From Gammaproteobacteria bacterium (lineage in GTDB: Bacteria; Pseudomonadota; Gammaproteobacteria; SZUA-229), in contig JAOUKV010000013.1 of NCBI GenBank assembly GCA_029882355.1, positions 1-64,000 on the forward strand: a DNA stretch of 64,000 nt, in the 5' to 3' direction. The position numbers and the translations under genes are program-made. The notes under the pieces are model-generated. The model ran no database searches. It saw nothing but the letters and a program-made list of their open reading frames with translations, and was not told the DNA's origin. This document shows, piece by piece, positions 45,197 to 63,754 of the stretch. Every line of letters begins with the position of its first letter. The stretch's first letter is position 1.

Positions 45197-46819
45197 TTAG
45201 TTATATAGAATTTTTAACCTACGGCCAATCATTGATAAGAATAGTATACACAATACAATTGGGTGTAATTGGCCAGATGAGCTACTATTGAGCGAATCGT
45301 GGAAGGCTCCAACCACCTTAATTTCATTGTCCAAGTCAAAGGTAGAGTCACCTCTGGCCGCATTTTTTAAATATAACGTGACAAGCGTGTTGGTTATTAG
45401 ATCTCCATTATCGGCTGTAAAAGTAAAATCCGAAATGATTTCAGACCCCGTCCCAGTATTAGCGTCCAAAATAAATTCAAACCAACTTGGTTGTGCTGCA
45501 ATATCTATCGGACCATATATATAAAAAGACTCGGGATTGAGCGTTGCTGGCAAATACATTCCTATTTGAACATTTTGATCCTGCTGAAGGCTATTTAGAG
45601 AAAACCCGATCACATCGACCTGATTTGCCACATTACCCGGTGTATTGGGTATCGCAGCCTTATCGACAAAGTGAACACCACTATAATTTATGAAACTTGA
45701 ACCTGTTAGCGTCACATATACACCATTACCGCTAGCAATACTGACAACATTACTTTGAGTGCTATCTAATACATCATCATGATTACCATCACCACCGTTT
45801 GGCCCTGAACTTTCGATCAAATCACTCACTCCATCGCCATCTGAATCATAATCTGCTAATGATAAGACTCCATCGCCAGATACATTAACCGTGTAATCAA
45901 ATCCCAATCCAGGAAATTCAATGTTAAAACTATCAATAAAGCTATTAATTGCTACCGGACTGAATGAAACAGCAAAAACACATGAAGCCCCGGGAAGAAG
46001 CGTTGTATTATTACACCCAGTGTCATTAATTCCGAATGGAGGCATAATTGGATCACTGCTTCCAATGTTACCGATCGATAGATTCTGTGCGCTTATATTT
46101 TCTATAATAAAGTCAGACTGCTGATAAGCATTGGATTCTACAGCTCCAAAATCATAGTCTGAGCTTATCTTAACCAGGCCTTCAACTTTAGTTATCTTAA
46201 CAAAGCTAGATATAAGTGCGGGGGGGGGATTATAATCAAGTAACGGAATTTCACTTAAACAACCAAAAGACAACAAACACCCCACATCGTAGATTGGAAT
46301 GAAAGATATTGAATCTATTACCTGCATACCATTATTAATTACTTCGCCAAACACAGTAAAACCACCATTCTGCCCGTCAAGGTTGGCCGAATTATCTGCT
46401 AGATTAAAAAACCATTGGCTTGTCGCACTATTTGGATCCCCATCAACCTTTGCCATTGCAATAGTACCCCGTAAATTTGAGATACCAGGCTCATTTAAAA
46501 TTGGATCTTTTTTTAGAACAAGCGAAAGACTACCAGCGATATCAGAAATACTCGGGTCATATTTGTAGCCGCCACCCTGAATAATAAAATTCGATACACT
46601 TCGATGTATAAAACTATTGTCATAACTACCATCATTGACATAGCTCATAAAGTTACTAACAGTTAATGGTGTGTCGGCATCATATAATTTTAGGTCGACT
46701 GTATTCAGAACTACCCCTTGCTGAATATTGAAACGAACGACAGTATCCGCATTACATATATTGAATGTAAGTATTGACAATATTAAACAAAACGAACGAA
46801 TTATTGAAAACCTATACAT
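45197..46819 (-). CDS. Secreted cyclophilin-type peptidyl-prolyl isomerase with anchor-like C-terminal domains
   Basis: 540 residues with signal peptide ending NICNA. Residues about 25-190 are a cyclophilin domain: FIHRSVSNFIIQGGGYKYDP and SQWFFNLADNSANLDGQNGG with GEVINNGMQVID. A choice-of-anchor D-like beta domain follows (DYDFGAVESNAYQQSDFIIE and LLPGASCVFAVSFSPV), then a calcium-loop motif (DYDSDGDGVSDLIE) and a choice-of-anchor U-like domain ending in LVTLYLKNAARG. The tail SSSSGQLHPIVLCILFLSMI plus GRRLK is a serine-hydrophobic-arginine sorting signal. It would present a proline isomerase on the cell surface. Its ATG is 60 bases from the prsR stop. Confidence 0.9.
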   Translation of the reverse strand: MYRFSIIRSFCLILSILTFNICNADTVVRFNIQQGVVLNTVDLKLYDADTPLTVSNFMSYVNDGSYDNSFIHRSVSNFIIQGGGYKYDPSISDIAGSLSLVLKKDPILNEPGISNLRGTIAMAKVDGDPNSATSQWFFNLADNSANLDGQNGGFTVFGEVINNGMQVIDSISFIPIYDVGCLLSFGCLSEIPLLDYNPPPALISSFVKITKVEGLVKISSDYDFGAVESNAYQQSDFIIENISAQNLSIGNIGSSDPIMPPFGINDTGCNNTTLLPGASCVFAVSFSPVAINSFIDSFNIEFPGLGFDYTVNVSGDGVLSLADYDSDGDGVSDLIESSGPNGGDGNHDDVLDSTQSNVVSIASGNGVYVTLTGSSFINYSGVHFVDKAAIPNTPGNVANQVDVIGFSLNSLQQDQNVQIGMYLPATLNPESFYIYGPIDIAAQPSWFEFILDANTGTGSEIISDFTFTADNGDLITNTLVTLYLKNAARGDSTFDLDNEIKVVGAFHDSLNSSSSGQLHPIVLCILFLSMIGRRLKILYN

Positions 46820-46879: not shown

Positions 46880-48235
46880 TTAAACCGTAATATTCAACTT
46901 CTTAATTAAATCATAGAGGGTGGGTCGACTTACTCCTAGCAATTCAGCCGCAGGTGCTATTTTTCCGTTAACATGAGACATAGCTCGAATAATTGCTTGA
47001 CGTTCTACTTTTTCTCTAATCTCTTTTAAATCATAGTGCATTCTTTCAGTCGGTGCTGTATCTAACTCAAGGTCTGATGCCGATATATATTTTCCATCTG
47101 ACATTATTACCGCTCGTTTTATTCTATTTTGCAACTCACGTACATTTCCTGGCCATATGTAAGACTCCATAGCTATAAGTCCGTCTTTACTAAATCCTTT
47201 TAGCTTTCCACCATGCTGCTCATTAAATTCTTTAAAAAAATATTTGGCCAGCAATACAACATCCCCTTCTCGATCTCTTAGTGGAGGAATCTCAATTGGA
47301 ATTTCACTGATCCTGTAGAATAAATCTTCCCTGAACTCACCCGTTGTTATTTTTTTTCTTAAATTTTGATGTGTTGCGCACACAATACGAACATTAACTG
47401 GAATCGGCTTATGACTACCAATACGCTCCACTACCCTTTCCTGCAAAAATCTTAGTAATTTTGCCTGCAATGCAATTGGCAGATCTCCCATTTCATCAAG
47501 AAACAGCGTGCCGCCGTCAGCATATTCAATCTTGCCTATTGTTTGTTTGGAAGCACCAGTAAAAGCACCTTTTTCATAACCAAATAATTCACTTTCTAAT
47601 AAGTTATCTGGTATTGCAGCACAGTTTATTGCCACAAAGTTACCCTTATTATTTCGCCCTTTCACATGAAGACCTCGGGCACAAATCTCTTTACCCGTAC
47701 CACTTTCCCCCAATAACAGAACTGTCGCATCTGATGGTGCAACTTTTTCAACGGCCTTACAGACACTTTGCATCTGTGGGCTGCAAGCTATAACTCCATT
47801 AAAGTGCTCATGATTTGAGGTATCGTGTAATATCTTATTCTCTTTCTCTAATTCATTAAGCCTGAACGCACGCCCTACAATAAGACTCATGATTTCTGGC
47901 TGGAATGGCTTAGCATAGAAATCATAAGCCCCAAGACCTACTGCCTTCACGGCATTTTCTTTTTCATCTTGACCGGTAACCACTATAACTTTTGTATTGG
48001 GCTCAATCTCTAGAATGCTTTCCAGTGTTGCAAAACCTTCAGAGGTGTTATCTGTTTCTGGTGGCAAACCAAGATCTAGAGTTACAACCGATGGTTTGTG
48101 TACTCTCACCTGTTCAAGAGCACTTTCACGATCATCCGCTAGCAATACATCGTATCCTTCGAAACACCACCTAATCTGGCTTTGCAAGCCAGGATCATCT
48201 TCCACAATAAGCAATTTATTTTTTTCTGTAGACAT
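46880..48235 (-). CDS. prsR: PEP-CTERM system sigma-54 response regulator PrsR
   Basis: 451 residues. Receiver domain about 1-125 with phospho-acceptor Asp in VVTLDLGLPPETDN and the Lys in FYAKPFQPEI. Sigma-54 AAA+ domain about 150-390: Walker A LLGESGTGKEICARG, GYEKGAFTGASKQ with the GAFTGA loop, LFLDEMGDLPIALQAKLLRF, and ELQNRIKRAVI. The C-terminus is a Fis-type helix-turn-helix (KIAPAAELLGVSRPTLYDLI). It is the partner of the histidine kinase encoded just upstream, and its predicted targets are the sigma-54 promoters in this locus. Confidence 0.95.
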   Translation of the reverse strand: MSTEKNKLLIVEDDPGLQSQIRWCFEGYDVLLADDRESALEQVRVHKPSVVTLDLGLPPETDNTSEGFATLESILEIEPNTKVIVVTGQDEKENAVKAVGLGAYDFYAKPFQPEIMSLIVGRAFRLNELEKENKILHDTSNHEHFNGVIACSPQMQSVCKAVEKVAPSDATVLLLGESGTGKEICARGLHVKGRNNKGNFVAINCAAIPDNLLESELFGYEKGAFTGASKQTIGKIEYADGGTLFLDEMGDLPIALQAKLLRFLQERVVERIGSHKPIPVNVRIVCATHQNLRKKITTGEFREDLFYRISEIPIEIPPLRDREGDVVLLAKYFFKEFNEQHGGKLKGFSKDGLIAMESYIWPGNVRELQNRIKRAVIMSDGKYISASDLELDTAPTERMHYDLKEIREKVERQAIIRAMSHVNGKIAPAAELLGVSRPTLYDLIKKLNITV

Positions 48236-48292
48236 AGACCCTTTTTACCATAAAACTGCGCAATTGTCGAAATACTTTACATATAATGAGTA

Positions 48293-50356
48293 TTATAATT
48301 CAACTGGAATGCGAGCGATAAAGCTCGATCCCTTTCCATATTCACTAAAAACATCTATCCCACCACCAAAAGATGAAAGAATTTCTCTGGCTTCATAGAC
48401 ACCGATTCCCATACCGCTAGAACCCTTTGTAGTCTTAAAAGGTTTAAATAATTCATTTTTTATAAAATCTTCAGACATACCACAACCTGTATCCCTGATC
48501 TCTATTACTACCCAGTCTCCTTGTTCAGAAACTAAGACATCTATCTTTCCATCACTCTCAGTTGCATCCTGTGCATTTTGAATCAAATGACCAAAGATCG
48601 ATAAGAGTTGACCACGGTCCCCTCTCACATAGCTTTGTTTGATTTCAGACGCTAATACTGGTACTGGTTTACCGCCCGCTTTATTTCGATTAACCACAAG
48701 TTCTTCCAGAAGACCCACAATATTAACTGTCACAAATGGCTTAGTTATTACCTTACCTTGTAACAACTCCATCATAACGTTCATCTTATCTACAGAATTT
48801 GAAATTGTTTTTATCACATCGTTAATGAACAATGGATTACTTTTATGTTTTTCTGCATTGCTTGTAATCAGTGATAACTGTGTTATAAGATTCTTTATAT
48901 CATGCACCATATAAGTGGCGAGTTTGTTATAACTTTCAAATTGTTTTGCCTCTGCCAGCTGTTCAGAAACTTCTCGTTGTACAATAAATGATGCTGCCTG
49001 CCTTGCAGCCGTATTTAACAAATCACTATCTTCCCAATTGAAATGTTTATTACTAATTTTTGAGTGATTAAGTATAATAAATCCGATTAGATCATCAATA
49101 TTTATTAGAGGAACAATTAGCCACGCCTCAACATCACGCACCCATAAAGGAAGTTCAAGAGATCCCAATCGATCATATACTTCTGGAGTCATGTCAAATT
49201 CATCAACACTGATTACAAATTCGTTTTCCGCAAGAAATTTCACTAGTGATGAATCAGAGGCTTCACTAATATTAATAGTTGGAATATTCATCGTCTCAAC
49301 ACATTGATAATTGCCTCCTTCCTTACGAAGCCAGAGCATAGCACCAGAACTATCAATTATCTGGGCAATTGACTTCAACGTCTTCGTATAAAATTCTATA
49401 CAATCTTCTGAACTAGATATTGTGCGAATAAATCGTAACCATTCATCTCGATAGTCATACTTATAGGGATATAAATGTTTATTAAGTAAAACCTTCCAGC
49501 GAGCACGTATCCTTTCCGAAAAAAGAAGTAGCAATAATGATAGAAAAGTAAAAAATAAAAGAAAGGCTTGCCCAACTAATCCCCAACTACCTCCATAATC
49601 GCGGACATAGTAACCAACCGCTCCCATTGTCATGAGATAAACAGCACTTGCCAAAAGAGATGTAGTATGAAATACAACTTTTCTTGAAATAAAAATTTCT
49701 GGAGACCACAGAGGATCCCTGATTATCGCAACACCCATCAAAGGAACAACAAGAGCATCTACAAATCCTCTAGCGTACCATAATGTTATATCTATACGTT
49801 TATACAAAAGTCCATCAGAGTACATGTAAAAGTCATAAATACACATTCCCCCTAGCCCCAAACAGAGAAACTTTATACTCCCCCTCTTCTCAGGCCTGGT
49901 ATTCCTGTATAACTGTTCAATAAGAACTATTCCAATAACCGCCAGTAATAAGTGACTTGTCAGTAAATAATTAAAATTATCTCCGAAGGTTGTAATGCCA
50001 TCATTCTGGTACTGATACAACACTGGAAACATCATTAAAATAACAAAAACAATGATTGATCCCAAAGCAACCATGAAACTTTTTGTTGTAATACCTGCAC
50101 CATAAGTAACACTAAGCATTCTTAGTAAAAGCGCTATCCAGCTTATACTTTTCATGAACTCAAGAACTTGTGGAGTTATTAGGTCGCTTCCTGTCATAGC
50201 CTGATAGGTCATTGAGAAGGCCCAAATACAGCTAGCGAATGCGGCTATGACAAGAAGAATTTTAGCGGAGCCTTTTTGCTTATCTGTAAGTAATACAGCA
50301 GAAAAAACAAGGAACGCAATAGCGCTAATAGAATAACCGATTGATCCGATATTCAT
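48293..50356 (-). CDS. prsK: PEP-CTERM system histidine kinase PrsK
   Basis: 687 residues. The first 290 contain about eight membrane helices. A GAF-like domain follows (about 320-460). The kinase core begins with the phospho-acceptor box KLATYMVHDIKNLITQLSLI, with an HDIKN motif, and ends with the ATPase domain: NAQDATESDGK (N box), EIRDTGCGMSEDFI (G1) and TKGSSGMGIGVYEAREIL (G2). This layout is that of PrsK, the sensor kinase of exosortase systems. It lies 57 bases upstream of prsR on the same strand. The signal sensed is unknown. Confidence 0.94.
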   Translation of the reverse strand: MNIGSIGYSISAIAFLVFSAVLLTDKQKGSAKILLVIAAFASCIWAFSMTYQAMTGSDLITPQVLEFMKSISWIALLLRMLSVTYGAGITTKSFMVALGSIIVFVILMMFPVLYQYQNDGITTFGDNFNYLLTSHLLLAVIGIVLIEQLYRNTRPEKRGSIKFLCLGLGGMCIYDFYMYSDGLLYKRIDITLWYARGFVDALVVPLMGVAIIRDPLWSPEIFISRKVVFHTTSLLASAVYLMTMGAVGYYVRDYGGSWGLVGQAFLLFFTFLSLLLLLFSERIRARWKVLLNKHLYPYKYDYRDEWLRFIRTISSSEDCIEFYTKTLKSIAQIIDSSGAMLWLRKEGGNYQCVETMNIPTINISEASDSSLVKFLAENEFVISVDEFDMTPEVYDRLGSLELPLWVRDVEAWLIVPLINIDDLIGFIILNHSKISNKHFNWEDSDLLNTAARQAASFIVQREVSEQLAEAKQFESYNKLATYMVHDIKNLITQLSLITSNAEKHKSNPLFINDVIKTISNSVDKMNVMMELLQGKVITKPFVTVNIVGLLEELVVNRNKAGGKPVPVLASEIKQSYVRGDRGQLLSIFGHLIQNAQDATESDGKIDVLVSEQGDWVVIEIRDTGCGMSEDFIKNELFKPFKTTKGSSGMGIGVYEAREILSSFGGGIDVFSEYGKGSSFIARIPVEL

Positions 50357-50435
50357 AGTAAACTTAGCACTTTATAAAATCATGGTGTGATTATAAACAA
50401 CCTGAGACCATCCTTTTTTCACAGATTGTTTTTAT

Positions 50436-52811
50436 TTATTGAAGTTTCTTAAGTAAAGCTTTCGCATCGTCCTTACCAATAAAATCATTATTATTAGCAA
50501 GTGAATTCGTTAAATATACTTTTGCAGCTATCTCATCACCTATTTTATGCAAAGCCATACCTAAATGGTAATTAAAGACAGGTACTTTTGGTGATTTTTC
50601 AACAACAACATTCAAGATATTAACGGCTTCAGTATAATTTCCAGACTTATAATAGATCCATCCAACCGTATCAAGTAACACTGCCTGCTTTTCATTTTTA
50701 AGTTTATCTGCCAGCTCCACAGCTCGTTTCATACTATCTACAGCAGCACCATGTTCAGATAAAAGCACAGCAAGATTGTTAATTAAAATAACATTGTCAG
50801 AATTTTTTTCATATGACTTTTCATATACATTAATAGCAGCACTAAAATCGTTAAGATCTTCATATATTTTTGCCAGAACAATTGATAACCGTATATCATT
50901 TTCAGTCTCTACAAGACCTCGTTGAAGAATATCTATCGCCTTCGAGTTTTGTTTTTCGTCATTGTATATTTTAGCCAGTAGAAAATAAGGTTCATTCCAG
51001 TCTGGCTTAATATTTAGTACTTTAAGTATACTTGATTTTGCGTCCTCAATTTTATTTGAAGACAATTCTATCTTAGCAATGAGCATATTTAACTCTGCCG
51101 TTTCACCTTTCTCTAGTATAGCCGAACGAACCATACTAGTTGCGACATCAAAGTCCTTACGAGAAATATAAAGAGAAGCTAAGAGTTCAAGTATACGGCT
51201 ATTTTCACTAACACGACTATACGCATCCTTAAGCAAATTAATTGCCTCATTTATTTTACTTTCGGATCGCAGGTAAGATACAGATTGAATGTATCCGTTT
51301 GGCATATTGGGATATAGCTTGATCATCCGTGAAGCATAAACATATGCTTCAGAGAACATTTTCTTTTTATTCAGAATTTTGCTTTTGTAGGTCAACGCTT
51401 CATAATTGTTAGCATCTACAGAAAGATAACCATCGACAACTTTTTCTAATTCATCACTATTGTTTTTATCAGCATGATATTCCGCCAACTTCATCAGCCC
51501 ATCTTTATTAGTTCGATTATTTTCATAGGCTCTTCTAATTATTTCAACAGCCTGTTCATTTTCACCATTTGCTTCAAGAGCCGCTGACAATAAAATATAT
51601 GCAACGACATTCTCTGGGTCATCTTTAATTACGATTCTAAGTGAGATGATAGCGCTTTCATAGGCCTTATTAATTAACTGCAATTTCCCTTTAATAAAAT
51701 TCACTTCAGAATCATTAGGGGATATCTTAACAGCTTCATTAATAATACTTATTGCTGCATCTTGATTTTTCTTCTGCATATACAGATTTGCAAGATTCAC
51801 CCTTGCCTTAATACCTACAGAGTCTTCAGAAAAGTCTGACGCCGCAGCTATTAATACTTTTTCGGCATCCTCCGTATTATTTTCTATTATGTAAAGTTCC
51901 GCTAAACTTAATCGTAACTCACCCATGTCTTTATTATTTCTTACAAAATGTTTCAATTCATCTATAGCGCTTTTATTACCTCTAGCCTGTTGAATGAATA
52001 CAACTAATGCTAGCTTCCTCTTGATATCGTCAACGTTTTTATCGACAGCCATTCGTAGGACATCTTCTGCTTTTTCAAAAGCCTCACTTTCCTTATAAAA
52101 CGACGCGAGCATCAAATAATTTGCAAACTGCCCAGGATTTTTATCAAGAATCCCCCTGTACTCCAATTCTGCCAAATCCAATTTTCCTCCTTCATAATAT
52201 GCTTTAGCTAATGCATGTACCAATGAGCGATCTTCAGGGTTTTCTTTTATACAAGCCTTTAGTACATTGATGGACTCATCAAATTGCTTATCCTTAATAT
52301 ATATGGCTGATAGAAATATAGCATTCTGAACGTTCTTAGGCATTTTCGAAAATACAGCCTGCGATATCTTCTTTGCTTCGGCTATATTGTTCAGTCTGGA
52401 TAAAATAGTTGCTTTGAGTATAAGTCCGTCTACATTAGTGGCATCTTTACCAAGAATAAGATCTCTTTTTTCTATAGCCGCATCGACATCATTTGCCAAC
52501 AATATGTAATAAATGCCAACTTTTGCATGGAATTTAAGATTATCTGGAGCCAGCTCTACCGCTTTTATGTAGTTTTTATATGCACTTTGATATTCTTTCT
52601 GCAGATCATATAAATCACCTAGCTTGGAATAAGCCTCAGCATGTTTTGGATCAATCTGAAGTACATTTTTTAATTCAATTCGTGCCTTATCCAGATCACC
52701 CGTTCTTAAGGATAGCTCTGCTTTTTCCATGTACACTGATTTTCTTTCTTCAGCTCCACCACAACCAACTAGAGCCATTATGGTAATTATTGATATCAAA
52801 AAATACTTCAT
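50436..52811 (-). CDS. prsT: PEP-CTERM system TPR-repeat lipoprotein PrsT
   Basis: 791 residues. The signal peptide ends in the lipobox LVGC (Cys17 or so), then GGAEERKSVYMEKAELSLRT begins a series of more than 15 TPR units that fill the protein, for example GDLDKARIELKNVLQIDPKH. PrsT is found in exosortase EPS loci and is presumed to organise export or assembly in the periplasm; its biochemical role is not settled. It is directly upstream of prsK on the strand, with a gap of 79 bases. AGGG lies about ten bases before its ATG. Confidence 0.9.
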   Translation of the reverse strand: MKYFLISIITIMALVGCGGAEERKSVYMEKAELSLRTGDLDKARIELKNVLQIDPKHAEAYSKLGDLYDLQKEYQSAYKNYIKAVELAPDNLKFHAKVGIYYILLANDVDAAIEKRDLILGKDATNVDGLILKATILSRLNNIAEAKKISQAVFSKMPKNVQNAIFLSAIYIKDKQFDESINVLKACIKENPEDRSLVHALAKAYYEGGKLDLAELEYRGILDKNPGQFANYLMLASFYKESEAFEKAEDVLRMAVDKNVDDIKRKLALVVFIQQARGNKSAIDELKHFVRNNKDMGELRLSLAELYIIENNTEDAEKVLIAAASDFSEDSVGIKARVNLANLYMQKKNQDAAISIINEAVKISPNDSEVNFIKGKLQLINKAYESAIISLRIVIKDDPENVVAYILLSAALEANGENEQAVEIIRRAYENNRTNKDGLMKLAEYHADKNNSDELEKVVDGYLSVDANNYEALTYKSKILNKKKMFSEAYVYASRMIKLYPNMPNGYIQSVSYLRSESKINEAINLLKDAYSRVSENSRILELLASLYISRKDFDVATSMVRSAILEKGETAELNMLIAKIELSSNKIEDAKSSILKVLNIKPDWNEPYFLLAKIYNDEKQNSKAIDILQRGLVETENDIRLSIVLAKIYEDLNDFSAAINVYEKSYEKNSDNVILINNLAVLLSEHGAAVDSMKRAVELADKLKNEKQAVLLDTVGWIYYKSGNYTEAVNILNVVVEKSPKVPVFNYHLGMALHKIGDEIAAKVYLTNSLANNNDFIGKDDAKALLKKLQ

Positions 52812-52873
52812 ACTAAATAACCCTTATATTGTTATACATTTATAAACACAGGTATCAAGAATCTAGATCTTAT

Positions 52874-53962
52874 TTATTCGTAGTATCGATTAGTTCTATA
52901 ACCTTCTTTTTCGCAAAGTGAATCGCGCTTTGCAATCATAATATCGTGCTCTACCATTTCTTTTACCATTTCTTCTAATCCTATCTTAGGTATCCAGCCC
53001 AACTTCACTTTCGCATTTGTCGGATCACCTAATAACGTCTCAACTTCCGTTGGCCTAAAATAGCGCTTATCAACTTCAACAAGGCATTTTCCAGTTGCTT
53101 TATCGTAGCCCTTTTCATCTACACCCTCTCCTTTCCAATCCATTTCAATACCGACTGCTTTAGCTGCTTTATTGACAAAATCTCTAACTGAATATTGAAC
53201 TCCTGTCGCAATCACAAAATCCTCTGGACTATCTTGCTGCAACATTAACCATTGCATTTCTACATAGTCTTTTGCATGCCCCCAATCTCTTTTAGCATCC
53301 ATATTGCCAAGATACAGGCTATCTTGAAGACCTAATTTTATTCTTGCAAAAGCACGTGTAATTTTTCTTGTTACAAAGGTCTCCCCTCTTACAGGTGATT
53401 CATGATTAAATAAGATTCCATTACAGGCATAGATCCCATACGCTTCACGATAATTCACTGTAATCCAGTAAGCATAAAGTTTAGCTACTGCATAAGGTGA
53501 CCTAGGATAAAACGGCGTTGTTTCTGTTTGTGGAATTTCCTGAACCTCTCCATAAAGCTCAGAAGTCGATGCTTGATAATAACGCGTTTTTTTCTCCAGC
53601 CCAGCGATACGAATCGCCTCAAGAATACGAAGAGCACCCATACCTACAGCATCGGCAGTATATTCTGGACACTCAAACGACACTGCCACATGACTTTGGG
53701 CGCCAAGATTATAAATCTCATCAGGTTGAATTTCCTGAACAAGGCGTACCAGATTCATGGAGTCGGTAAGATCGCCATAATGCAGCTTAAACCTCTGATT
53801 TTTCTCATGAGGATCCTGATATAAATGATCAATACGATCAGTGTTAAAAGAAGATGCTCTTCTTTTTATTCCATGTACTTCATAGCCCTTATCCAACAGG
53901 AACTCAGCTAAATAAGCACCATCTTGCCCTGTAATGCCCGTAATTAATGCAATTTTACTCAT
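52874..53962 (-). CDS. gmd: GDP-mannose 4,6-dehydratase
   Basis: Gmd converts GDP-mannose to GDP-4-keto-6-deoxymannose, precursor of GDP-fucose, GDP-rhamnose and related sugars. The 362-residue protein shows the NAD(P) motif [53 protein letters not shown], the catalytic YxxxK as [20 protein letters not shown], and [20 protein letters not shown]. All catalytic residues are visible. No fcl or rmd gene lies in the window, so the final sugar is unknown. The gene sits between prsT and the PAPS synthase gene. Confidence 0.97.
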
Positions 53963-54025
53963 ATCAAATCAACTCTAAATCATTAAAAAAATAAACCTTT
54001 CACACAGTTAGACTCCAAAAACCAC

Positions 54026-55756
54026 TCAAACTTTTGTATTCGAATTAATATACCCCTCACGCACAAGATACAAATGAATCTCTTCTGCAGCCTGTATTGG
54101 TAACACATTTTCAGTATTGATAATTAATTCGGGATTTTCTGGTATATCATATGGATCACTGATGCCAGTAAACTCAGGTATCAATCCTTTTCGCGCTTTC
54201 GCATACAAGCCCTTACGATCCCTTCTTTCACATTCTTCAAGCGAGGTCGATACATGGATCTCTATAAATGCGCCATACTGTTCGATATTAGCGCGCACCT
54301 CTCTCCGCATCTTTGAGTATGGCGCTATCGGTGCGCATATAGCAACTCCCCTGTTCTTGGTAATTTCACTGGCAACATAACCAATACGCTTAACATTTAT
54401 ATCCCTGTCTTTTTTAGAAAAACCCAGCTCGCTAGATAGATTATGCCTGACCACATCACCATCAAGTAATGTAACAGGGCGCACACCATGCTCGATAAAT
54501 TTAGCATAAACAATGCGTGCCAATGTCGATTTTCCTGAACCAGATAAACCGGTGAAAAATAAAGTAATACCCTGTTTTTCACGCGGAGGACACGCTTGAT
54601 GCATCGCTGAAAGAACTTCAGGATAAGTCACCCACGAAGGTATTACCATGCTCCGCGATATAGCCTCAAGAATTTTATCATTCGAAAACTTAACAGCTTC
54701 ACAATCTGCTGATTTTATCTCAAGAATCGGCAGAAATTTCCCTAACTGCTGATTAAAACAAAGCTCATTTGCATAAACAATCTTGATATCAAGCGCGTCT
54801 TCATACTTTTTAATATATTGCTGAGAAGCGCCCGTAGGATAAAATCGAACAGCATTATCCCTTACATTAGGCGGTGCAGCATGTTCTGTTCCGACAATGT
54901 AATGTGAACACCCATAATTCTGTCTTATTATGGCATTCATCAAGGCCTCACGAGGACCGGCCATGCGCAGAGCGGCAGGGAGTAAAGACAGTTCAACCAG
55001 ACCTTTTGGATAGTATTCCATAATGGCCTGATAACAATGAACACGTGAATAATATTGAATATCGCCAGGCTTAGACATGCCGACAACAGGATGTATCAAA
55101 ATATGCGCATTAGCCTCGTTCGCAGCCAGCGTTGTAATCTCATGATGCACACGGTGCATGGGTTTACTGGTATGAAATGCGACGATATTCTGCCAGCCCT
55201 GTTTAGCAAACTTTTGACGTAACTCTCTAGGCGTATTACGCAACAAATCAAAATCATAATGAAATGGAAGCTGGATACCGCGAACACTACCACCAATATA
55301 AAAAGATCCAACTGAATTAAACAAATACTTCACACCGGGATGTTCATGATCAGACGTCCCATAAATAGCTTCAGCTTCCTTAGCTTTATCAACACGCCAA
55401 ACACTTTCAACAGTCAACACTGCAGGCATAAAACCTTCTGTATCCCTCAATGCCAATTGGCTGCCAATTTCAATATCTGCAAATTCATCGCCAACATCAA
55501 GACAATATGGAATTGGCCAAATAACACTATCAGGTAGACAAGTGTTTTCAATGACAGAATTATAAATATCCTCTGTCATAAACCCTGTTAAAGGTGAAAG
55601 CGCACCATTCAGTAACAACTCAAGATCACATTGTTGACGTTGCGAAAGCACAACAGCCGAAAATGTTTCGGACTCAATTTTTAACTGTTCGGCCTCTTCA
55701 TCAGACAAAAGAAGATCTATTAGCTCTCCCTGGTATGGTGAAATCAAGTGGTTCAT
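54026..55756 (-). CDS. Bifunctional sulfate adenylyltransferase / adenylylsulfate kinase (PAPS synthase type)
   Basis: About 576 residues, sulfurylase first and kinase last. The kinase domain (about 395-576) is complete: GLSGSGKSTLARIVY, LDGDVVRHNLSSELGFSKKD, and GLYAKARKGLIPEFTGISDP. The sulfurylase domain has the right length and fold signals (SPLTGFMTEDIY, AALRMAGPREALMNAIIRQN), but both nucleotide motifs deviate: HTSKPMHRVHHE replaces QTRNPMHRAHxE, and GTEHAAPP replaces GRDHAGPG. Only the HxxH pair is kept. The kinase should make PAPS from APS; whether the sulfurylase half works is open. An opening TTG at 55831 is possible but the ATG at 55756 begins like the family. Confidence 0.92.
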   Translation of the reverse strand: MNHLISPYQGELIDLLLSDEEAEQLKIESETFSAVVLSQRQQCDLELLLNGALSPLTGFMTEDIYNSVIENTCLPDSVIWPIPYCLDVGDEFADIEIGSQLALRDTEGFMPAVLTVESVWRVDKAKEAEAIYGTSDHEHPGVKYLFNSVGSFYIGGSVRGIQLPFHYDFDLLRNTPRELRQKFAKQGWQNIVAFHTSKPMHRVHHEITTLAANEANAHILIHPVVGMSKPGDIQYYSRVHCYQAIMEYYPKGLVELSLLPAALRMAGPREALMNAIIRQNYGCSHYIVGTEHAAPPNVRDNAVRFYPTGASQQYIKKYEDALDIKIVYANELCFNQQLGKFLPILEIKSADCEAVKFSNDKILEAISRSMVIPSWVTYPEVLSAMHQACPPREKQGITLFFTGLSGSGKSTLARIVYAKFIEHGVRPVTLLDGDVVRHNLSSELGFSKKDRDINVKRIGYVASEITKNRGVAICAPIAPYSKMRREVRANIEQYGAFIEIHVSTSLEECERRDRKGLYAKARKGLIPEFTGISDPYDIPENPELIINTENVLPIQAAEEIHLYLVREGYINSNTKV

Positions 55757-55799
55757 AGTGTTAGTGTTGGCAATAGATTTTGGGGAACTTAAAAAACAC

Positions 55800-56573
55800 C
55801 TAATAAATAGATTTATTAAGCACTGTTCCAATAATATTAGTGACGGACAAGATATCTACAGCTTGCTTCAAGTCACTTTCCTTGGTTACATCATCTTCAA
55901 TTACGATAAGACTTGCATCAATACAAGGAGCTATAGACATAGCGTCTGCAGTTCCTAATACAGGAGGAAGTACAAACAGAATAATTCTCTTCGGATAGTG
56001 ATCCTTTAATGTTTCGACGAGACCGCACATCTTAGGAGAACCCATCATCTCGGATGAATTCAGGAGTGGGACACCACCAGGAAGTATAATAAAATGCTCT
56101 ATCTCCTCAGGTCGATAGAGTACATCTGATAACTCAATATCACTACGTAAATAATCACACAATCCATATTTTGGCTGAACACCAAAAAATTCGTGTACCT
56201 TTGGATTCCTTAGATTAGCATCGACTAGTATGACGGAGTATTCGACTTCTTTTGCAATACTAATCGCTAAGTTTATTGCAGCAGTTGTTTTACCTTCACC
56301 TCCCGTTGGACTAGTTATTGCCAGTGTGGTCCAGCGATGCTCCTCCATGCGCTGAATAACTTGTATACCCAGTATATTAAATGCATCCGTATAGTTGTCA
56401 TGGCCTAAAGCAGTTGAGATTCTGCTCTCCTGCATTATCTTATTTGAACTTTTAATAGCTTGAGTTGTCGAATACTTAACAGGAGAGTCATTCTCATCTA
56501 AATCTACATAGTGACCTGAACCCCCTGCGCGTTCATTTCGAGCCCTCTCTAGTGCCTGCTTAATTTTTTCCAT
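55800..56573 (-). CDS. BY-kinase-like (CpsD/CapB) ATPase of the exosortase EPS system
   Basis: 257 residues starting MEKIKQALERARNERAG, a start typical of XrtA/EPS-associated tyrosine autokinases. Walker A SPTGGEGKTTAAINLA is near residues 90-105, and Walker A' SVILVDANLRNPKVHEFFG follows. At the Walker B position, where others have an aspartate (FDLPP or IDSPP), the sequence is LFVLPPVLGTADAM, so the usual aspartate is valine. The C-terminus lacks a tyrosine cluster, with only one final Tyr. With the Wzz-type protein upstream it should form the chain-length regulator; the kinase activity may be weak. Confidence 0.9.
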   Translation of the reverse strand: MEKIKQALERARNERAGGSGHYVDLDENDSPVKYSTTQAIKSSNKIMQESRISTALGHDNYTDAFNILGIQVIQRMEEHRWTTLAITSPTGGEGKTTAAINLAISIAKEVEYSVILVDANLRNPKVHEFFGVQPKYGLCDYLRSDIELSDVLYRPEEIEHFIILPGGVPLLNSSEMMGSPKMCGLVETLKDHYPKRIILFVLPPVLGTADAMSIAPCIDASLIVIEDDVTKESDLKQAVDILSVTNIIGTVLNKSIY

Positions 56574-56596
56574 CGATCTAAAACCTAGTAGTAATA

Positions 56597-58342
56597 TTAA
56601 CCAAAAAATAAATCAAATTTTCGCAATATACGAAACCACAAAACATCCAGTGGAGTTATTAGAAGATGCACAATAAGTACAGCAACAATGACCACCCCTA
56701 TGACAATAAGTAACAATCGTTTATTTAACTTGTTATGGTTTTCAATATCATCCAAATTCAACTGATAAGGAACTACGGACAAGGGAGCCACACCCAATAT
56801 ACGCTCAACAGCTCTTGAACCGCGTACCGTACCGCTAATTGATTCAGTAAGAAACACAAAACCAAGAGCTGACCCTATTGAGAAAATAAAGCCTAAAAAT
56901 AAAATTGCAGGTCTGTTAGGCCTAACAGGTTCTTCAGGTAATGCGGGTGGATCGATTAAAGTAAACCGTTCACCTTTGCTTTCTGTTTCAAGTTGCTTAG
57001 ATATATCTGCAGCACGTAGTTTTGATCTAACATCCTGATTCCGCCTCAAAGCATTTTCATAATCACGCTGCAAAACAAGGTATTCTCGCTCAACTTGCGG
57101 AGCCATCAGCATAACTTGCTCTAATTCTTCCTGTTTTTTCAGGTAACCTTTTTTCTGTATTTTTAAAGCACTCATCTCACTCAAAACACCTTCTAACTGT
57201 GCCTTAAGAGTTATATAAGCAGGGTTATCTGGAGATTCCTGTGAATACTTGCCAGACTCATTGTCAGCAGCGTTTTGAATTTTTGCAACACTTAACTGAT
57301 TTTCAAGAGCAGTTATTTTTGCATTTAGAGCTACGATATCAGGATGTTCTTGTGTATATTTTTTTCTTAAAACTTCTGACTCTGTACGCAAAGCCGTTAG
57401 TTGTTTTACTAAAAAATCTACACTGTCACCAGAACCAGATCGAAGCGCATCAATCTCATTCCTCAAGGCAATCACATCGGGATGGGATTCTGAGTATCGT
57501 GAAGCCGCTGATGCATATTCTGATTCTAGGATCTTTAATCTGGTACTAACACTTTGCACCAATGGATTATCTGGTTGAATTTGATCAAGCCTTCCTTCTA
57601 AATAAAATTTTCTATCTTCAAGATTTAAAAGCGTGGTATTAGTTGAGATTATATTCGACTCAATTCTTTGCAAAACCTGCATATTTACTTGCTGAACTTG
57701 TGGCAACATTTTTGCATTAGCCTGCTTGAATTTCGCTAACTTCTCTTCAAGTTCTGCAATATCAATTCTAATACGCTCTGACTCTTCCCTAAAAAACTCC
57801 GATGTTTCTAAAGCCTTGCTCGCTCTACTTTCAAGATTCTTATTTAAATACAAAGTCGTCAACTCACTGACAACTTTCTGCACCTGGCCAGGATTCTCTC
57901 CCTCATATGATAAAGAAAAAGCAATAGTCGCAGAAGATGCCCTGCCTGTTGAAGGATTCACAACATCTGCACTAATTACATCCAGCGAGGTATCATCTTG
58001 CATACGATAGATTATTGCTTCTGAAGTTTCGCGCTTACGCTCATCTTTATACAAATTAAACTTATCAATAATCTTAAATAAATTACTTCTGCTCATAACC
58101 TGAGCCTGTATTGATTGAATTCTTTCAGCTGCATAGCTGGTCATGGTTGACATGACTAGTGCTTGAGGAATTTGTTGTTGCTCAATCAAAATTGTGGCTG
58201 AAGACCGATACACTGATGGCAACAGAAATACCACCACTACAGTAATAAATGTGATAATAGCAATAATTGATATTAAAACTTTTTTTTGCTTCCGTAGGAT
58301 AGCGAGATAATCGCGAAAATCAAGATTTTTTTCTTCCACCAT
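56597..58342 (-). CDS. Wzz/GumC-family polysaccharide chain-length determinant
   Basis: 581 residues. One membrane helix near the start (VLISIIAIITFITVVVVFLL) and two segments near the end (PAILFLGFIFSIGSALGFVF, and LLLIVIGVVIVAVLIVHLLI) frame a long periplasmic part. Residues about 170-450 are coiled coil with GNVR-type ends (EREYLVLQRDYENALRRNQD). A P-rich segment (DPPALPEEPVRPNRPAILF) precedes the second membrane region, as in this family. The protein should control length of the exported polysaccharide with the ATPase encoded 23 bases downstream. Confidence 0.94.
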   Translation of the reverse strand: MVEEKNLDFRDYLAILRKQKKVLISIIAIITFITVVVVFLLPSVYRSSATILIEQQQIPQALVMSTMTSYAAERIQSIQAQVMSRSNLFKIIDKFNLYKDERKRETSEAIIYRMQDDTSLDVISADVVNPSTGRASSATIAFSLSYEGENPGQVQKVVSELTTLYLNKNLESRASKALETSEFFREESERIRIDIAELEEKLAKFKQANAKMLPQVQQVNMQVLQRIESNIISTNTTLLNLEDRKFYLEGRLDQIQPDNPLVQSVSTRLKILESEYASAASRYSESHPDVIALRNEIDALRSGSGDSVDFLVKQLTALRTESEVLRKKYTQEHPDIVALNAKITALENQLSVAKIQNAADNESGKYSQESPDNPAYITLKAQLEGVLSEMSALKIQKKGYLKKQEELEQVMLMAPQVEREYLVLQRDYENALRRNQDVRSKLRAADISKQLETESKGERFTLIDPPALPEEPVRPNRPAILFLGFIFSIGSALGFVFLTESISGTVRGSRAVERILGVAPLSVVPYQLNLDDIENHNKLNKRLLLIVIGVVIVAVLIVHLLITPLDVLWFRILRKFDLFFG

Positions 58343-58393
58343 ACAACCACTCAGTTAAATTTAAATTTCTATATCAAGATTAATTTTTGTAAA

Positions 58394-59578
58394 TCAAATG
58401 GAAGGAAAATCGTACTTCAAATTAACAGCAAATTTATTCTTTCCTATTTCATCCTGCGAAACACCTTCATAATTATTCTTAGAATAAAAATACTCAGCTC
58501 TAAGATTTAAGTTATGCGCCAAAGAAAAATTCATCGCCGGAATAATCGTTGTGAAAGAACGAGAGTAATCTACTACGTTATCATTAAGCTCTTCAATACT
58601 TACCTGATTAATAGCTAATACAATACCAATTAATGCTGTCACTTTCATCCTAAGCTTAGTATGTATTGTATCGGTTTGATCAAGCCCTCCCGTGAAGTTA
58701 GGTACAACATTTCTACTAGCACCAAATTCAATCCATTTTGCATCAATAACTGCTTCGAATGTTGCACCGGAATTACTGCCTTCAACCGCTTGAGTACCTG
58801 TAACATTAGAACCAAGAAAATTAAACCCCGCAGCACTTCTAGTACTGAAGTCACGAGTATTGACACCAACGAAAAGTTTCGAGGTGATCATTTCAGAAAA
58901 ATCATGATCAATTCCAAATTTTGATGCCAACATATGATATTCAGAAATATCATTCTCAGAGCTATAATCTGTAGATGTCAAAAGAAAACTGAGCTGACTT
59001 TTCTGAGATAACTTATATTCCACCTCACCCGATGCACCTGTAGTTTCATATGGCAAATATCTCTGTGATGCTGAAGTATATTTCACATCTGAGTATTGAT
59101 AAGCAAGTGAAAGTGATAGCCTTTCTGTTAAAAGATGTGAGTACTTTGGTGCAAGTGATAACTTCTTAGTATCAGTCTGCTCAAGAGATTCGGCTAAAAC
59201 ATTTTCCTCTGCTGTACGACTCGAAAAGTTGTCATAACCAACAAAGGCCGAATAAATATTTCGATTATCTTTATAGGCTGTTTCAAGATCCAGATGAGCA
59301 TCAAAATTATCTTGATAGTCAGCAGAATATGTTGTACCAGCGACACTAGCATTCACTGCAGTTTCCCAGGCATCACTAGTGTATTTTAACTTTATCTTAG
59401 GAGTAATCTTAACGATAGATGATGACTCATCATTACCTGTAGCCGATGCATTTATATTGTCATCGTAAGTGACACGAGCATTAATTTCCGACACTAGTAA
59501 AAAATTTGAAGCATTTGTAAATGTTGAAAATAGACAAAAAAATATTAAAAGGCAGTTATTAATGATAGATCTAAGCAT
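58394..59578 (-). CDS. Outer-membrane beta-barrel protein of the exosortase EPS locus
   Basis: About 394 residues with signal peptide NCLLIFFCLFSTFTNASN. The rest is alternating beta-strand pattern with repeated Y, S and D residues, as in the PEP-CTERM-associated outer-membrane beta-barrel family found in these loci. The first strand region reads INARVTYDDNINASATGNDE. It ends YDFPSI. The preferred start (59578) has GGAAG eight bases upstream, but a TAATG overlap with the upstream export gene gives a start at 59617 that would also work. Likely role: the outer-membrane channel or a partner in polysaccharide export. Confidence 0.85.
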   Translation of the reverse strand: MLRSIINNCLLIFFCLFSTFTNASNFLLVSEINARVTYDDNINASATGNDESSSIVKITPKIKLKYTSDAWETAVNASVAGTTYSADYQDNFDAHLDLETAYKDNRNIYSAFVGYDNFSSRTAEENVLAESLEQTDTKKLSLAPKYSHLLTERLSLSLAYQYSDVKYTSASQRYLPYETTGASGEVEYKLSQKSQLSFLLTSTDYSSENDISEYHMLASKFGIDHDFSEMITSKLFVGVNTRDFSTRSAAGFNFLGSNVTGTQAVEGSNSGATFEAVIDAKWIEFGASRNVVPNFTGGLDQTDTIHTKLRMKVTALIGIVLAINQVSIEELNDNVVDYSRSFTTIIPAMNFSLAHNLNLRAEYFYSKNNYEGVSQDEIGKNKFAVNLKYDFPSI

Positions 59579-59616
59579 GTTTTTATCTTCCATAGTAATT
59601 AAAGAAATAGCGTTCA

Positions 59617-60165
59617 TTACGGCACCACAACCGTATCACCAGCCTTCAACATAATATTCATCTCTATCTCATCTCCACTTACGACATCATCGTAGTCAAA
59701 TTCAAAGATCTCCTTGGTCTTATTAGTACGCCGAAGAATTTTTATATTATCAGAATCAGCATACGGTGTGAGACCACCTGCCAAAGTTAAAGCCTGCAAT
59801 ACATCCATATATTGTGAAGTAACAAACTGACCTGGTTTATTAACCTGCCCAATCACATAAACCCTGTTACTTGTAGACTGCAAGACACTAACTGTTACAT
59901 TAGGATTCGGGATATATGAATTAAGTTTATCGACTATCATTTTAGTAAGCATTTTTGTATCTATACCACCGGCCTTTATATCCCCAACTAGTGGGAACGT
60001 TATATAACCATCTGGCTTAACAAGAACCTCTTTCTGCAAGCCTTCTTCTTTCCAGACAGAAATCGATAGAAGATCACCTGGACCTATAACATATAAATCA
60101 GTCTCTGAATAAACATCAAAGACACATAAAAACATAACCAGCAAAAAACCAATAATTTTCTTCAT
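59617..60165 (-). CDS. Wza-type polysaccharide export protein
   Basis: 182 residues with signal peptide (IIGFLLVMFLCVFDVYS). The Wza hallmarks are YVIGPGDLLSISVWKEEGLQ near the mature start, PDGYITFPLVGDIKAGG, then NPNVTVSVLQSTSNRVYVIG and VLQALTLAGGLTPYADSDNI of the soluble-ligand-binding domain. It ends LKAGDTVVVP. It lacks a lipobox. Polysaccharide passes through such proteins across the periplasm and outer membrane. The ATG at 60165 is preferred to an opening at 60213. Its stop overlaps a downstream ATG by one base. Confidence 0.93.
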   Translation of the reverse strand: MKKIIGFLLVMFLCVFDVYSETDLYVIGPGDLLSISVWKEEGLQKEVLVKPDGYITFPLVGDIKAGGIDTKMLTKMIVDKLNSYIPNPNVTVSVLQSTSNRVYVIGQVNKPGQFVTSQYMDVLQALTLAGGLTPYADSDNIKILRRTNKTKEIFEFDYDDVVSGDEIEMNIMLKAGDTVVVP

Positions 60166-60504
60166 ATTTATATCTCGTTTCAACATGCCACATAGAGATG
60201 TGCAGCTAATCAAACCCCTATTTACCTTTAGTTAAGTTTAATGTCTTACCACCAATGAACATGTCACATCAACATCAGCATTAGAACCATATCCATAGGC
60301 GCTAATGAACCAATAAAAGACACAGCCTACCAAAGATGGATTATAACAGATACCTTACGACAGTTAAGCTATATTAAAACAATCACCACATAAGAATATA
60401 AGCATATAAGCAAACCCTAAACATTCAAATACAACCTAAAAAAAATAAAACAGCACATAAAACCGAACAATGCACAACAACGAGCAGATAATGTCACCAC
60501 ATCA
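60166..60504. other. Intergenic region inside the EPS gene run
   Basis: About 340 bases between the export-protein gene and the WecA-like gene. It is AT-rich with many short A/T tracts and no gene. A short self-complementary element (CACATAGAGATGTG, 60189-60202) is the only structure noted near the export gene. A promoter for the export-to-PrsR gene run could lie here, but no matching sigma-70 or sigma-54 elements were found by eye. Confidence 0.35.
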
Positions 60505-62142
60505 TTAAACAAGACCTCTAATAGCAATTAGACCCAACGCAAGCATTGCCGAGCCAGTTAAAACGTTTAGACGATTTTTCATGTGTTGAATGGTCAGTTC
60601 ACAGGCATAAAAAAGGACAATTATTTGGACCGCCATCCCAATCATACTTGACGACCCATGATCAATTCCCGGCAACATTCCTACAATGATCACCACAATA
60701 ATAACGAGATAATCTAGTGGAGTAATTTGAAATTTATCTGCAATAGTTATACGAGCAACAACAAATGAGGAAAAAGCCATAAGCACAAAGAATATATATA
60801 CAATACTAATTTGATCTAACAACCAGACAGGTGGGTAAGTGGATACTAAATAAACTGAGAAACCCATCGTAACAAACATGATTAGTCTATATAACTGAAT
60901 TCTAAACAAGCTAGTTACGGCTACTAAAAGTAGCAGTATAAGCAATATAAGTGATGAAACTCCCAAATCAACCGGGATATTATTCGACATGAGTGCAGCA
61001 GTAACTATAAACAGCGATATACCCAACTCAAGCACCCAATATGGAATAATAGCCAAATGTGCATTTTTATCTAAAACATTAGAAAGAAAAAGTGGTTTTA
61101 CGGTATTGCTAATATGTGCACTCCAACTGCTTCGTTCCGCAATAGTAATTATAGAAAAAAGCAATATAGATGAACCTAAATATAAACCTATAAGTAAATA
61201 ATCACTCTCATAGGGTAACAAAACAGCTCCTACTACAAATATCATTTGTATAGAGTAAATAATTATTACTGTTTCGTAATGATAAAATCCAAGCCCTAGC
61301 AACCTATGGTGCAAATGGTCTTTAGCAGCAACTACCAGACTAACCCCTCTTTTGCCGCGCAAATAAAATACCGCAATGCTATCAACTACAGGCAGACCTA
61401 ATAACAAAAGCGTTATAACCGGGCTAATAGTATGATTGACCTGCTGCGAGATATAAACAACCATCACCCCCAAAATAAAACCCAGTGTTTGACTCCCGGT
61501 ATCACCCATGAATATCCTTGCAGGATATGAATTAAATCGAAGAAAACCAAAGATTCCGCCAATTGTTGCAGCAGCAACTGCAAGCCCATTAGTGGCATCG
61601 TACAAATATGATAAAAAGGCTATTGCTGCAAGCGAGATCAACGCTTCACCACCAGCAAGCCCATCTAAACCATCAGATAAATTCAACGCATTAATCATTC
61701 CAACGATTGCAATTACGGTGAATGGTTTTCCAACATAAGGATGGAGCTCTTCAAGACCTATAAATGGGAAATGAAATACATAAATATCGCCATAATATAC
61801 GACAACAATTGCAGCCATTAACTGCCCAAAAAACTTAAATGCTGGGCGTATATTTCTAGAATCATCCCATGCACCGAAAAATAACAATATGGAACAACCG
61901 ATTAGGATTGATATAATAAATCGATCAAGTTCCAGCCATAAGAATAAAGGAACAAGCATACCGACTACAATGCCCACTCCACCTGATCTGGGTATCGCCG
62001 CTGTATGCACCTTACGACCATCCGGCTTATCCAGCATACCTATGATGGGGGCGATTCTTATCATAATTGGCGTAATAACCATGCAGATTACCATCGAGGT
62101 AATGGCAATCAGAATATAAAAACTAAGCTCGTTAGGATCCAT
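60505..62142 (-). CDS. WecA/MraY-like undecaprenyl-phosphate sugar-1-phosphate transferase
   Basis: 545 residues with about 15 hydrophobic segments. The catalytic part is in the first 330: RKVHTAAIPRSGGVGIVVGM, LLFFGAWDDSRNIRPAFKFF with the Asp-Asp pair, MINALNLSDGLDGLAGGEAL, RIFMGDTGSQTLGFILGVMV and AAKDHLHHRLLGLGFYHYET. The rest, about 200 residues, is an extra membrane domain not present in WecA. Such enzymes start polysaccharide chains by moving a sugar phosphate to undecaprenyl phosphate. It is encoded 16 bases after the exosortase gene, so both are likely co-expressed. Confidence 0.92.
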   Translation of the reverse strand: MDPNELSFYILIAITSMVICMVITPIMIRIAPIIGMLDKPDGRKVHTAAIPRSGGVGIVVGMLVPLFLWLELDRFIISILIGCSILLFFGAWDDSRNIRPAFKFFGQLMAAIVVVYYGDIYVFHFPFIGLEELHPYVGKPFTVIAIVGMINALNLSDGLDGLAGGEALISLAAIAFLSYLYDATNGLAVAAATIGGIFGFLRFNSYPARIFMGDTGSQTLGFILGVMVVYISQQVNHTISPVITLLLLGLPVVDSIAVFYLRGKRGVSLVVAAKDHLHHRLLGLGFYHYETVIIIYSIQMIFVVGAVLLPYESDYLLIGLYLGSSILLFSIITIAERSSWSAHISNTVKPLFLSNVLDKNAHLAIIPYWVLELGISLFIVTAALMSNNIPVDLGVSSLILLILLLLVAVTSLFRIQLYRLIMFVTMGFSVYLVSTYPPVWLLDQISIVYIFFVLMAFSSFVVARITIADKFQITPLDYLVIIVVIIVGMLPGIDHGSSSMIGMAVQIIVLFYACELTIQHMKNRLNVLTGSAMLALGLIAIRGLV

Positions 62143-62158
62143 TAGTTATTACAAAAGA

Positions 62159-63754
62159 TCAATCTGGAACATATTCAGAAATAATAGGGCTAATTTTACT
62201 CACAAAATCAGTTAGGCGTTTATCAGCCGCATCCATAGATTTTCCTTGAGGTACAACTGTGGTTAATCTAATAAGCGCCCCATCCGTTCTCTGTTTCTGA
62301 ATTGAGTCTATGAAAAAATACCACTTAATCATTTGCTCATTAGTAACTATACGATCACGTTGCTTGAACCAGTAATATACCAATTGCCTAACACCATCCT
62401 TCTCAATAACAAACCGGTTAACATTAAGAGGTATCGACGAAATAGTAACATTATCTAATGTTACTTTCTTCGAACTAATGACACGCCACCCTCCCCCAGG
62501 TAAACACGCTCTCGGAGAATGAGTTGTTGAATCTTTTCTTTGAGATTCATAATAAGCAGAATAAAAATTTATTAGTGTTTCGTTATCGCTTGTATAATTA
62601 ATAAACGCATAATCAGTCAGCTTTAATTTATCAAGAAAGATACTCTCCATAACTTCCGGCCGACCAGTCCATTTATCTATATTCAATGGGAAACCAGCAA
62701 ATGAATTTCGATCAGGAATAATTTCAGACCTCTTTTCTAATAAAAAAGCCGCAGGGACTGCAACAGTTAATATCATAATAGAGACGATAAACATTTTAGT
62801 CACAGAGCGATAATGAATATTTGCATCTTCAGGTGCAGGCTCAGGAAACTCAATGCCAAATGCTTCTATCAAAGGTAATTTGTTTGCACCAATCCTTGCA
62901 AGCAGCCACATCTCAAAGATAAGAATTGCAGTACAGCTCATAAACACGGCCCAGCCCTGAAAATCATGCAAGAATCCTTCTGCCATTTCCACACCCCAGT
63001 ATTCGACTGTGACACCTATTACACCAATCCTTAAACTATTCATTAAAACCGTAATAGGTATTGTCGATATAAAAATAATGACTTTTTTCCATAATGCTCC
63101 TGTAAAAAAATAGGCAGCAATAAATCCTAAGGTCATTAATGGAAATAAATAATTTAAGCCACTACACGCCTCAACAACCTGTAATTTAAAAATCCCCAGA
63201 TCAATTACATTGCCTTCAAGGTAGACGCTAATATCAATAAGACGAATAAATGCGACACCGAGCTGAGATGAAATCAATTGTAATTGAGCCGAAAGATCAT
63301 TAAACAGAAAATTTGGCAATGGAATCATAAAGAAAAGAATAATTAATGGAGCAAGAATCACTCTAAAACTAGTGATCCCCATTAAAGAAAGAGCTATTCC
63401 ATATACGGTAATCAAAAAAGCATATTGGCTTATTGTATAAATTGAAGCTAAATCGGAGAGAAAAAACACAATGACTCCAATCAAAACAAAAACAACACCG
63501 ACCCAGGAACCAGTGAATTCAATATACTCTAACTGATCCTTTCTTTGCCAGATAAGAAAAGCTGTAATTAGCGGTATCATAACACCGTGACCATATTCTT
63601 CGCGTGTAAGCCACCAAGAAACCATCAATTCCAGTCCGTCGTAAAAGAGTACACCCATTAATATTGCACATATTACAAACATACCCCATAGCACAGGTGT
63701 AATTTCCCATACATCATTTTGTTGCTCCATTGCTGGATTGGTATCTGGTTTCAT
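62159..63754 (-). CDS. xrtD: Exosortase with fused EpsI domain (probably XrtD, VPLPA type)
   Basis: 531 residues. The first 300 form an eight-helix exosortase core: Cys at about residue 196 in VVEACSGLNYLFPLMTLGF, Arg at about 241 in NSLRIGVIG, and His at about 262 in FLHDFQGWAVF, the catalytic triad. Residues about 300-531 are an EpsI-type periplasmic domain, with HSPRACLPGGGWRVISSK. The enzyme should cleave the VPLPA/PEP-CTERM tails found on at least two proteins in this window. The XrtD assignment rests on the EpsI fusion and on the PVPAAVWLFGSG type of its substrates; XrtA cannot be ruled out. Confidence 0.9.
   Translation of the reverse strand: MKPDTNPAMEQQNDVWEITPVLWGMFVICAILMGVLFYDGLELMVSWWLTREEYGHGVMIPLITAFLIWQRKDQLEYIEFTGSWVGVVFVLIGVIVFFLSDLASIYTISQYAFLITVYGIALSLMGITSFRVILAPLIILFFMIPLPNFLFNDLSAQLQLISSQLGVAFIRLIDISVYLEGNVIDLGIFKLQVVEACSGLNYLFPLMTLGFIAAYFFTGALWKKVIIFISTIPITVLMNSLRIGVIGVTVEYWGVEMAEGFLHDFQGWAVFMSCTAILIFEMWLLARIGANKLPLIEAFGIEFPEPAPEDANIHYRSVTKMFIVSIMILTVAVPAAFLLEKRSEIIPDRNSFAGFPLNIDKWTGRPEVMESIFLDKLKLTDYAFINYTSDNETLINFYSAYYESQRKDSTTHSPRACLPGGGWRVISSKKVTLDNVTISSIPLNVNRFVIEKDGVRQLVYYWFKQRDRIVTNEQMIKWYFFIDSIQKQRTDGALIRLTTVVPQGKSMDAADKRLTDFVSKISPIISEYVPD

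Follow-up and report, generated by a model that had tools for sequence, protein, structure and literature searches.

A gene that fuses an ATP-sulfurylase-like (Sat-like) half to an APS kinase half lies on the minus strand of the window, by which we mean the whole stretch of 64,000 nucleotides that was analysed. Its reading frame is open, which rules out decay of the gene by frameshift, and its product scores 771 bits with NF004040, the NCBIfam model for bifunctional Sat/APS kinase (PRK05537), against a cut-off of 669. A plasmid search returned only relatives with less than 60% identity. The gene stands inside an exosortase and exopolysaccharide (EPS) locus, and two TPR-sulfotransferase genes are found in the same window; CpsD, gmd, PrsK and PrsR are names that we take to apply to genes of the EPS locus.

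40161-42059 and 42206-43993, minus strand: two TPR-sulfotransferase genes, likely PAPS users
46880-62142, minus strand: EPS/exosortase locus around the fusion
48293 and 46880, minus strand: PrsK/PrsR-like kinase and regulator, EPS/exosortase locus
50436, minus strand: TPR protein gene, EPS/exosortase locus
52874, minus strand: gmd-like gene, EPS/exosortase locus, flanking the fusion
54026-55756, minus strand: Sat-like/APS kinase fusion gene, 576 amino acids, ATG start at 55756
54029-54589, minus strand: APS kinase half, residues 390-576, intact, with Pfam APS_kinase at 395-547
54524-54550, minus strand: kinase P-loop GLSGSGKST, residues 403-411
54590-55756, minus strand: ATP-sulfurylase-like half, residues 1-389, with Pfam PUA_2 at 5-162 and ATP-sulfurylase at 172-386
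55800, minus strand: CpsD-like gene, EPS/exosortase locus, flanking the fusion
56597, minus strand: Wzz-like gene, EPS/exosortase locus
58394, minus strand: beta-barrel gene, EPS/exosortase locus
59617, minus strand: polysaccharide export gene, EPS/exosortase locus
60505, minus strand: glycosyltransferase 4, EPS/exosortase locus
62159-63754, minus strand: exosortase (Exosortase_EpsH and DUF3485), upstream in the same EPS locus, with a TIGR03109 match below cut-off

The pair of TPR-sulfotransferase genes adjoins a short protein (44110-44631) whose end resembles a PEP-CTERM sorting tail, and a cyclophilin-type peptidyl-prolyl isomerase with an Ig-like domain is encoded at 45197-46819, with the sulfotransferases on one side and the EPS regulators on the other.

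The fusion exceeds the curated cut-off of the Sat/APS kinase model but lacks the canonical motifs QTRNP..H..H, GRDH and SGTxxR, and carries HTSKPMHRVHH, GTEH and SNDKIL at the three sites.

55139-55174, minus strand: altered motif 1, HTSKPMHRVHHE, residues 195-206, canonical form QTRNP(M/L)HRxHxE
54869-54892, minus strand: altered motif 2, GTEHAAPP, residues 289-296, canonical form GRDHAGPG
54668-54685, minus strand: third altered motif, SNDKIL, residues 358-363, canonical form SGTxxR with a probably PPi-binding arginine

Motif 1 has lost the R197 and N198 positions and kept H201 and H204, while motif 2 has lost the R290 position and kept H292. In A. vinosum Sat (PMC3779200), Gln199, Arg201 and the backbone of Ala299 bind the sulfate of APS; Gly295, His298 and the backbone of Arg296 contact the ribose, and Arg365 shifts into the PPi site. 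Docking to human PAPSS1 (PMC11697783) placed the sulfate between R421 and R522, which neutralise it. We matched these residue numbers to window columns by motif, and by position the SGTxxR arginine would be the equivalent of A. vinosum Arg365. The published roles thus indicate that the handles for sulfate and PPi are gone from the fusion and that the nucleotide contacts are largely kept. The original prediction had both sulfurylase motifs altered, as HTSKPMHRVHHE and GTEHAAPP, read directly in the DNA, confirm, and the kinase half complete, which also holds; it did not include the loss of the third motif. Its description of the two as lost nucleotide motifs has to be corrected, because mainly sulfate- and PPi-holding side chains are affected and both HxxH and the ribose-contacting histidine are kept.

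Fusions were compared in an alignment of 108 rows, comprising the window, the fusions of the searched genomes and three PDB chains, from which 20 monofunctional Sat rows had been removed before counting. A strict motif rule (QTRNP[ML]HR.H and GRDH) gave 67 canonical and 41 degenerate rows, the window among the latter. In the full-length tree of 71 rows, for which canonical rows were thinned to 30 as in the other tree, 31 rows including the window formed one clade (SH-aLRT 100). The same 31 rows were recovered with support of 98/91 by a tree of the kinase half only, which is beyond the influence of the sulfurylase motif changes. Arginine was absent at the R197 position in 31/31 clade rows and present in 66/66 canonical rows, and exactly the same counts were obtained at R290. 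Lysine replaces asparagine at position 198 in 25 of the 31 clade rows, and the SGTxxR arginine is retained in 2. Two rows, L119 and L120, have almost no motif 1 left. Since the same or similar replacements occur across the clade, the motif changes are not due to chance or sequencing error. The HxxH pair, which the original prediction described as kept, is so in the window fusion but not clade-wide, as the first histidine is present in 31/31 rows and the second in 16/31. Likewise, the proposal that HTSKP and GTEHAAP form a clade was right in that altered motifs mark the 31-row clade, but that exact form covers a subset only: HTSKP is the form of the closest relatives of the window, and QTSKP is common in the sister subclade.

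Degenerate fusions were also located outside the clade (3CR8, L123-L125, L012/L121, L122 and L126), so the loss may have occurred more than once. The group of 3CR8, the T. denitrificans protein that we take to have the locus tag Tbd_0210, fell outside the 31 rows in both trees, although a joint clade was not rejected (p-AU 0.475). Two degenerate fusions were present in one genome in G022 (L137, L128), G118 (L103, L126), G027 (L134, L129) and G229 (L105, L106), and the pairs of G022 and G118 come from different parts of the tree. One fusion with several stop codons (L164, in G063) is an apparent pseudogene of the family.

Conservation differed between the two halves of the protein: all 62 kinase columns conserved in canonical fusions were kept in the clade, compared to 57 of 93 such columns in the sulfurylase half, with the other 36 not kept at 90%. 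Special conservation of the sulfurylase pocket is not claimed, because the pocket looked well conserved when set beside all other columns but no longer did so once the comparison was limited to columns of equal conservation in canonical fusions; the partial row L129 was omitted from the first pocket-conservation analyses and from those of distance and dN/dS. An AlphaFold model of the window protein and three relatives was poor (mean pLDDT 43, pTM 0.32) and was not used.

The genome to which the window belongs (2.88 Mb, 98.5% complete) contains one other Sat (C41:63252-64415) with the canonical motifs QTRNPMHLAH and GRDHAGVG, and AprA is encoded on that contig too, at a distance of about 10 kb (C41:74575-76494). 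No CysD was found in this genome, and the window fusion is its sole APS kinase. The single match to the PAPS-reductase family (L153) adjoins accA and was read from the DNA as TilS. At least seven sulfotransferases were detected, consisting of six Sulfotransfer_3 matches and one Sulfotransfer_1 gene beside one of the six. Four of the seven share contig 2 with the fusion, two being the TPR-sulfotransferases of the window and two lying just beyond it, within a series of genes for glycosyltransferase, flippase and acyltransferase. A 642-residue protein with an Acetyltransf_6 (GNAT-type) and a sulfotransferase domain (L168:16345-18270, contig 37) is encoded in this genome at a second exosortase/EPS locus.

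Of 36 genomes that carry a degenerate fusion, 34 also had another ATP sulfurylase (monofunctional Sat or CysD), against 5 of the 37 with a canonical one (Fisher 4e-13; 16/18 against 5/22 when each family code is counted once, 3e-5). AprA, which marks sulfur oxidation by way of APS, was present in 24 of 36 against 1 of 64. These counts share ancestry, and a tree-aware test by independent pairs, run for degeneracy against a separate ATP sulfurylase, yielded a single supported pair and lacked power. The AprA comparison includes 27 canonical genomes of the phylum draw that were scored for AprA only. These counts omit G063 with its broken fusion as well as G596 and G297, which have the sulfurylase half only, and include three genomes classed by eye (G298 and G362 as degenerate, G202 as canonical). 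Thus a canonical fusion usually stands alone as ATP sulfurylase, with no other found in 32 of the 37 genomes, and a degenerate fusion almost never does. The suggestion that the fusion may need another ATP sulfurylase is in line with these data, one being present in its own genome as well. No other ATP sulfurylase was found in G351 (row L111, inside the clade), whose assembly is fragmented into about 410 contigs, nor in G314 (L127), whose fusion motifs are nearly canonical. AprA was without a match in 12 of the 36 degenerate-fusion genomes, which indicates that sulfur oxidation is not the sole setting of these proteins, and for 24 of the 36 the search for a further APS kinase came back empty. 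Degenerate fusions with a QTTQP motif (L117, L116 and L118, in G263, G361 and G147) occur alongside a complete CysD and a 649-residue open frame with a second APS kinase domain, probably CysNC, giving two apparent PAPS routes in one cell.

Degenerate fusions of relatives have much the same neighbour genes as the window fusion, and exosortase, Wzz or CpsD-type neighbours were not found at the fetched canonical loci, many of which had flanks of only 1.5 kb. We sampled neighbours from 17 chosen degenerate and 16 chosen canonical loci, as a rule two or three genes per side. Sugar-nucleotide and polysaccharide enzymes were the commonest Pfam families among the 83 neighbours of degenerate fusions, and no such group stood out among the 83 neighbours of canonical fusions. 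The exosortase XrtA model matched (E up to 1e-20) in 21 of 29 degenerate-fusion genomes, 9 of 37 canonical-fusion genomes and 82 of the 303 remaining genomes of the class draw. Sulfotransferases, searched with a home-made HMM, were not significantly commoner in fetched degenerate loci (6/32) than in canonical ones (2/19, p=0.69).

Proteins of similar construction are known. The Aquifex aeolicus Sat/APS kinase (2GKS) and the canonical fusions that answer, like the window fusion, to NF004040 have the same domain order and a similar length, but they carry the QTRNP, GRDH and SGTxxR motifs, unlike the window protein. The T. denitrificans two-domain APS kinase (PDB 3CR8) shares with the window protein a sulfurylase-like half fused to APS kinase, and is published as having no ATP sulfurylase activity (Gay et al. 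2009); its inactive half was proposed to stabilise a hexamer (PMC13213808). The residues it has lost are not those of the window protein: the motif-1 arginine is still there (QARQPMHRAQ), but the second histidine and GRD have gone (GGEH). About 26 residues of the window protein, between positions 121 and 152, have no counterpart in 3CR8. The E. histolytica APS kinase (23VK) likewise combines a sulfurylase-like half, inactive there, with an active kinase. In the same source (PMC13213808), that inactive half raises kcat about 100-fold, its removal lowering kcat accordingly, and the enzyme is described as a dimer without the substrate-binding loop and with a shortened linker. By sequence, the window protein matches it over residues 355-570 only. 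Over its full length the window protein is best matched by Penicillium chrysogenum ATP sulfurylase (1I2D); there too one half is dead and regulatory, as proposed here for the window protein, but it is the kinase half (PMC3779200). With an N-terminal sulfurylase-like half that lacks catalytic residues, a complete kinase and a separate ATP sulfurylase in the genome, the window gene is of the T. denitrificans kind, in an apparently different and wider lineage that has lost other residues. The kind is already known, since one such bacterial protein, whose sulfurylase-like half is inactive, has been published. Within the literature accessible to our search, we found no paper on the clade or its exosortase loci.

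We consider it highly probable that the fusion works as a one-step APS kinase whose PAPS goes to sulfotransferases, and that its sulfurylase half, though dead, persists as a scaffold or modulator. Because the sulfate arginines of motifs 1 and 2 and probably the PPi arginine of SGTxxR are gone, the sulfurylase half is predicted to be unable to make APS, and judged by its sequence it is best called inactive but retained. It would still fold and assemble, while APS would come from the canonical Sat encoded elsewhere and from sulfur oxidation by AprAB, in which it is an intermediate. The kinase half would convert this APS to PAPS, for use by sulfotransferases of the exosortase/EPS region and by the TPR-sulfotransferases on exopolysaccharide or protein. 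By analogy to T. denitrificans and E. histolytica, the dead half most likely serves as an oligomerisation scaffold and as a modulator of the kinase, and it may also spare the cell a second enzyme that runs back from APS to ATP.

A different possibility is that the half is altered yet active, with K198 in place of R197 and APS still made, perhaps slowly or with another oxyanion. The lysine at 198 (25/31 clade rows, and 12/12 full-length rows on the window side), the HxxH kept in the same 12 rows and the purifying selection on the domain are what such an enzyme might show. However, R290 and SGTxxR are lost as well, the second histidine is missing in 15 of the 31 rows, L119 and L120 have almost no motif 1, and 34 of the 36 degenerate-fusion genomes retain another ATP sulfurylase, which makes this reading highly improbable. 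We regard it as very unlikely, too, that the half is a functionless remnant on its way to loss. The ratio of sulfurylase to kinase distance is 2.12 in altered fusions against 1.37 in canonical ones, so that the altered half is the faster, 36 of the 93 columns that were once conserved fall short of 90% retention, and the fusion of G063 is broken by several stops. Against this, almost every clade row has the altered half over its whole extent, 57 of the 93 columns are kept, and dN/dS in close pairs is mostly 0.03-0.09, reaching 0.27-0.36 in three, with dS saturated in many; values well under 1 argue that the half is retained and not drifting freely.

The dead half might instead bind ATP, ADP or APS and switch the kinase, mirroring the PAPS-binding dead kinase half of the fungal enzyme, an explanation that we think unlikely. 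The 12 window-side rows keep T196, HxxH, GxxKxxD and H292 and have K198, P296, R299 and R304 as new invariant residues. Pocket columns, however, were not specially retained (15/24, against 58/108 of the other canonical-conserved columns, p=0.50), the pocket is eroded in the sister subclade (8/24), and the inactive half of the E. histolytica enzyme was reported to bind substrate no longer (PMC13213808). The particular version in which a remodelled sensor (K198, HxxH, GxxKxxD, H292, P296, R299/R304) controls the kinase in response to APS or ATP levels appears quite unlikely to us; if it were true, sulfur oxidisers would divert APS to PAPS only while the energy pathway runs, without the half remaking ATP. 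Returning to the original prediction, its idea of a separate lineage rather than a decayed domain is supported as far as the lineage goes by both trees, but a new catalytic function is not, given the pocket comparison, the further erosion of the motif within the clade and the fast evolution of the half.

Since the proteins of the clade pass the NF004040 cut-off, automatic annotation would assign to them a reaction that they are probably unable to carry out, and pathway reconstructions would then misplace sulfate activation. What is new here is the breadth of the lineage and the genomic complementarity, by which a single published bacterial oddity becomes a lineage. This offers a testable rule, namely that a supply of APS by another enzyme goes with a dead sulfurylase half, and in sulfur-oxidising relatives it would link the provision of PAPS to exopolysaccharide loci.
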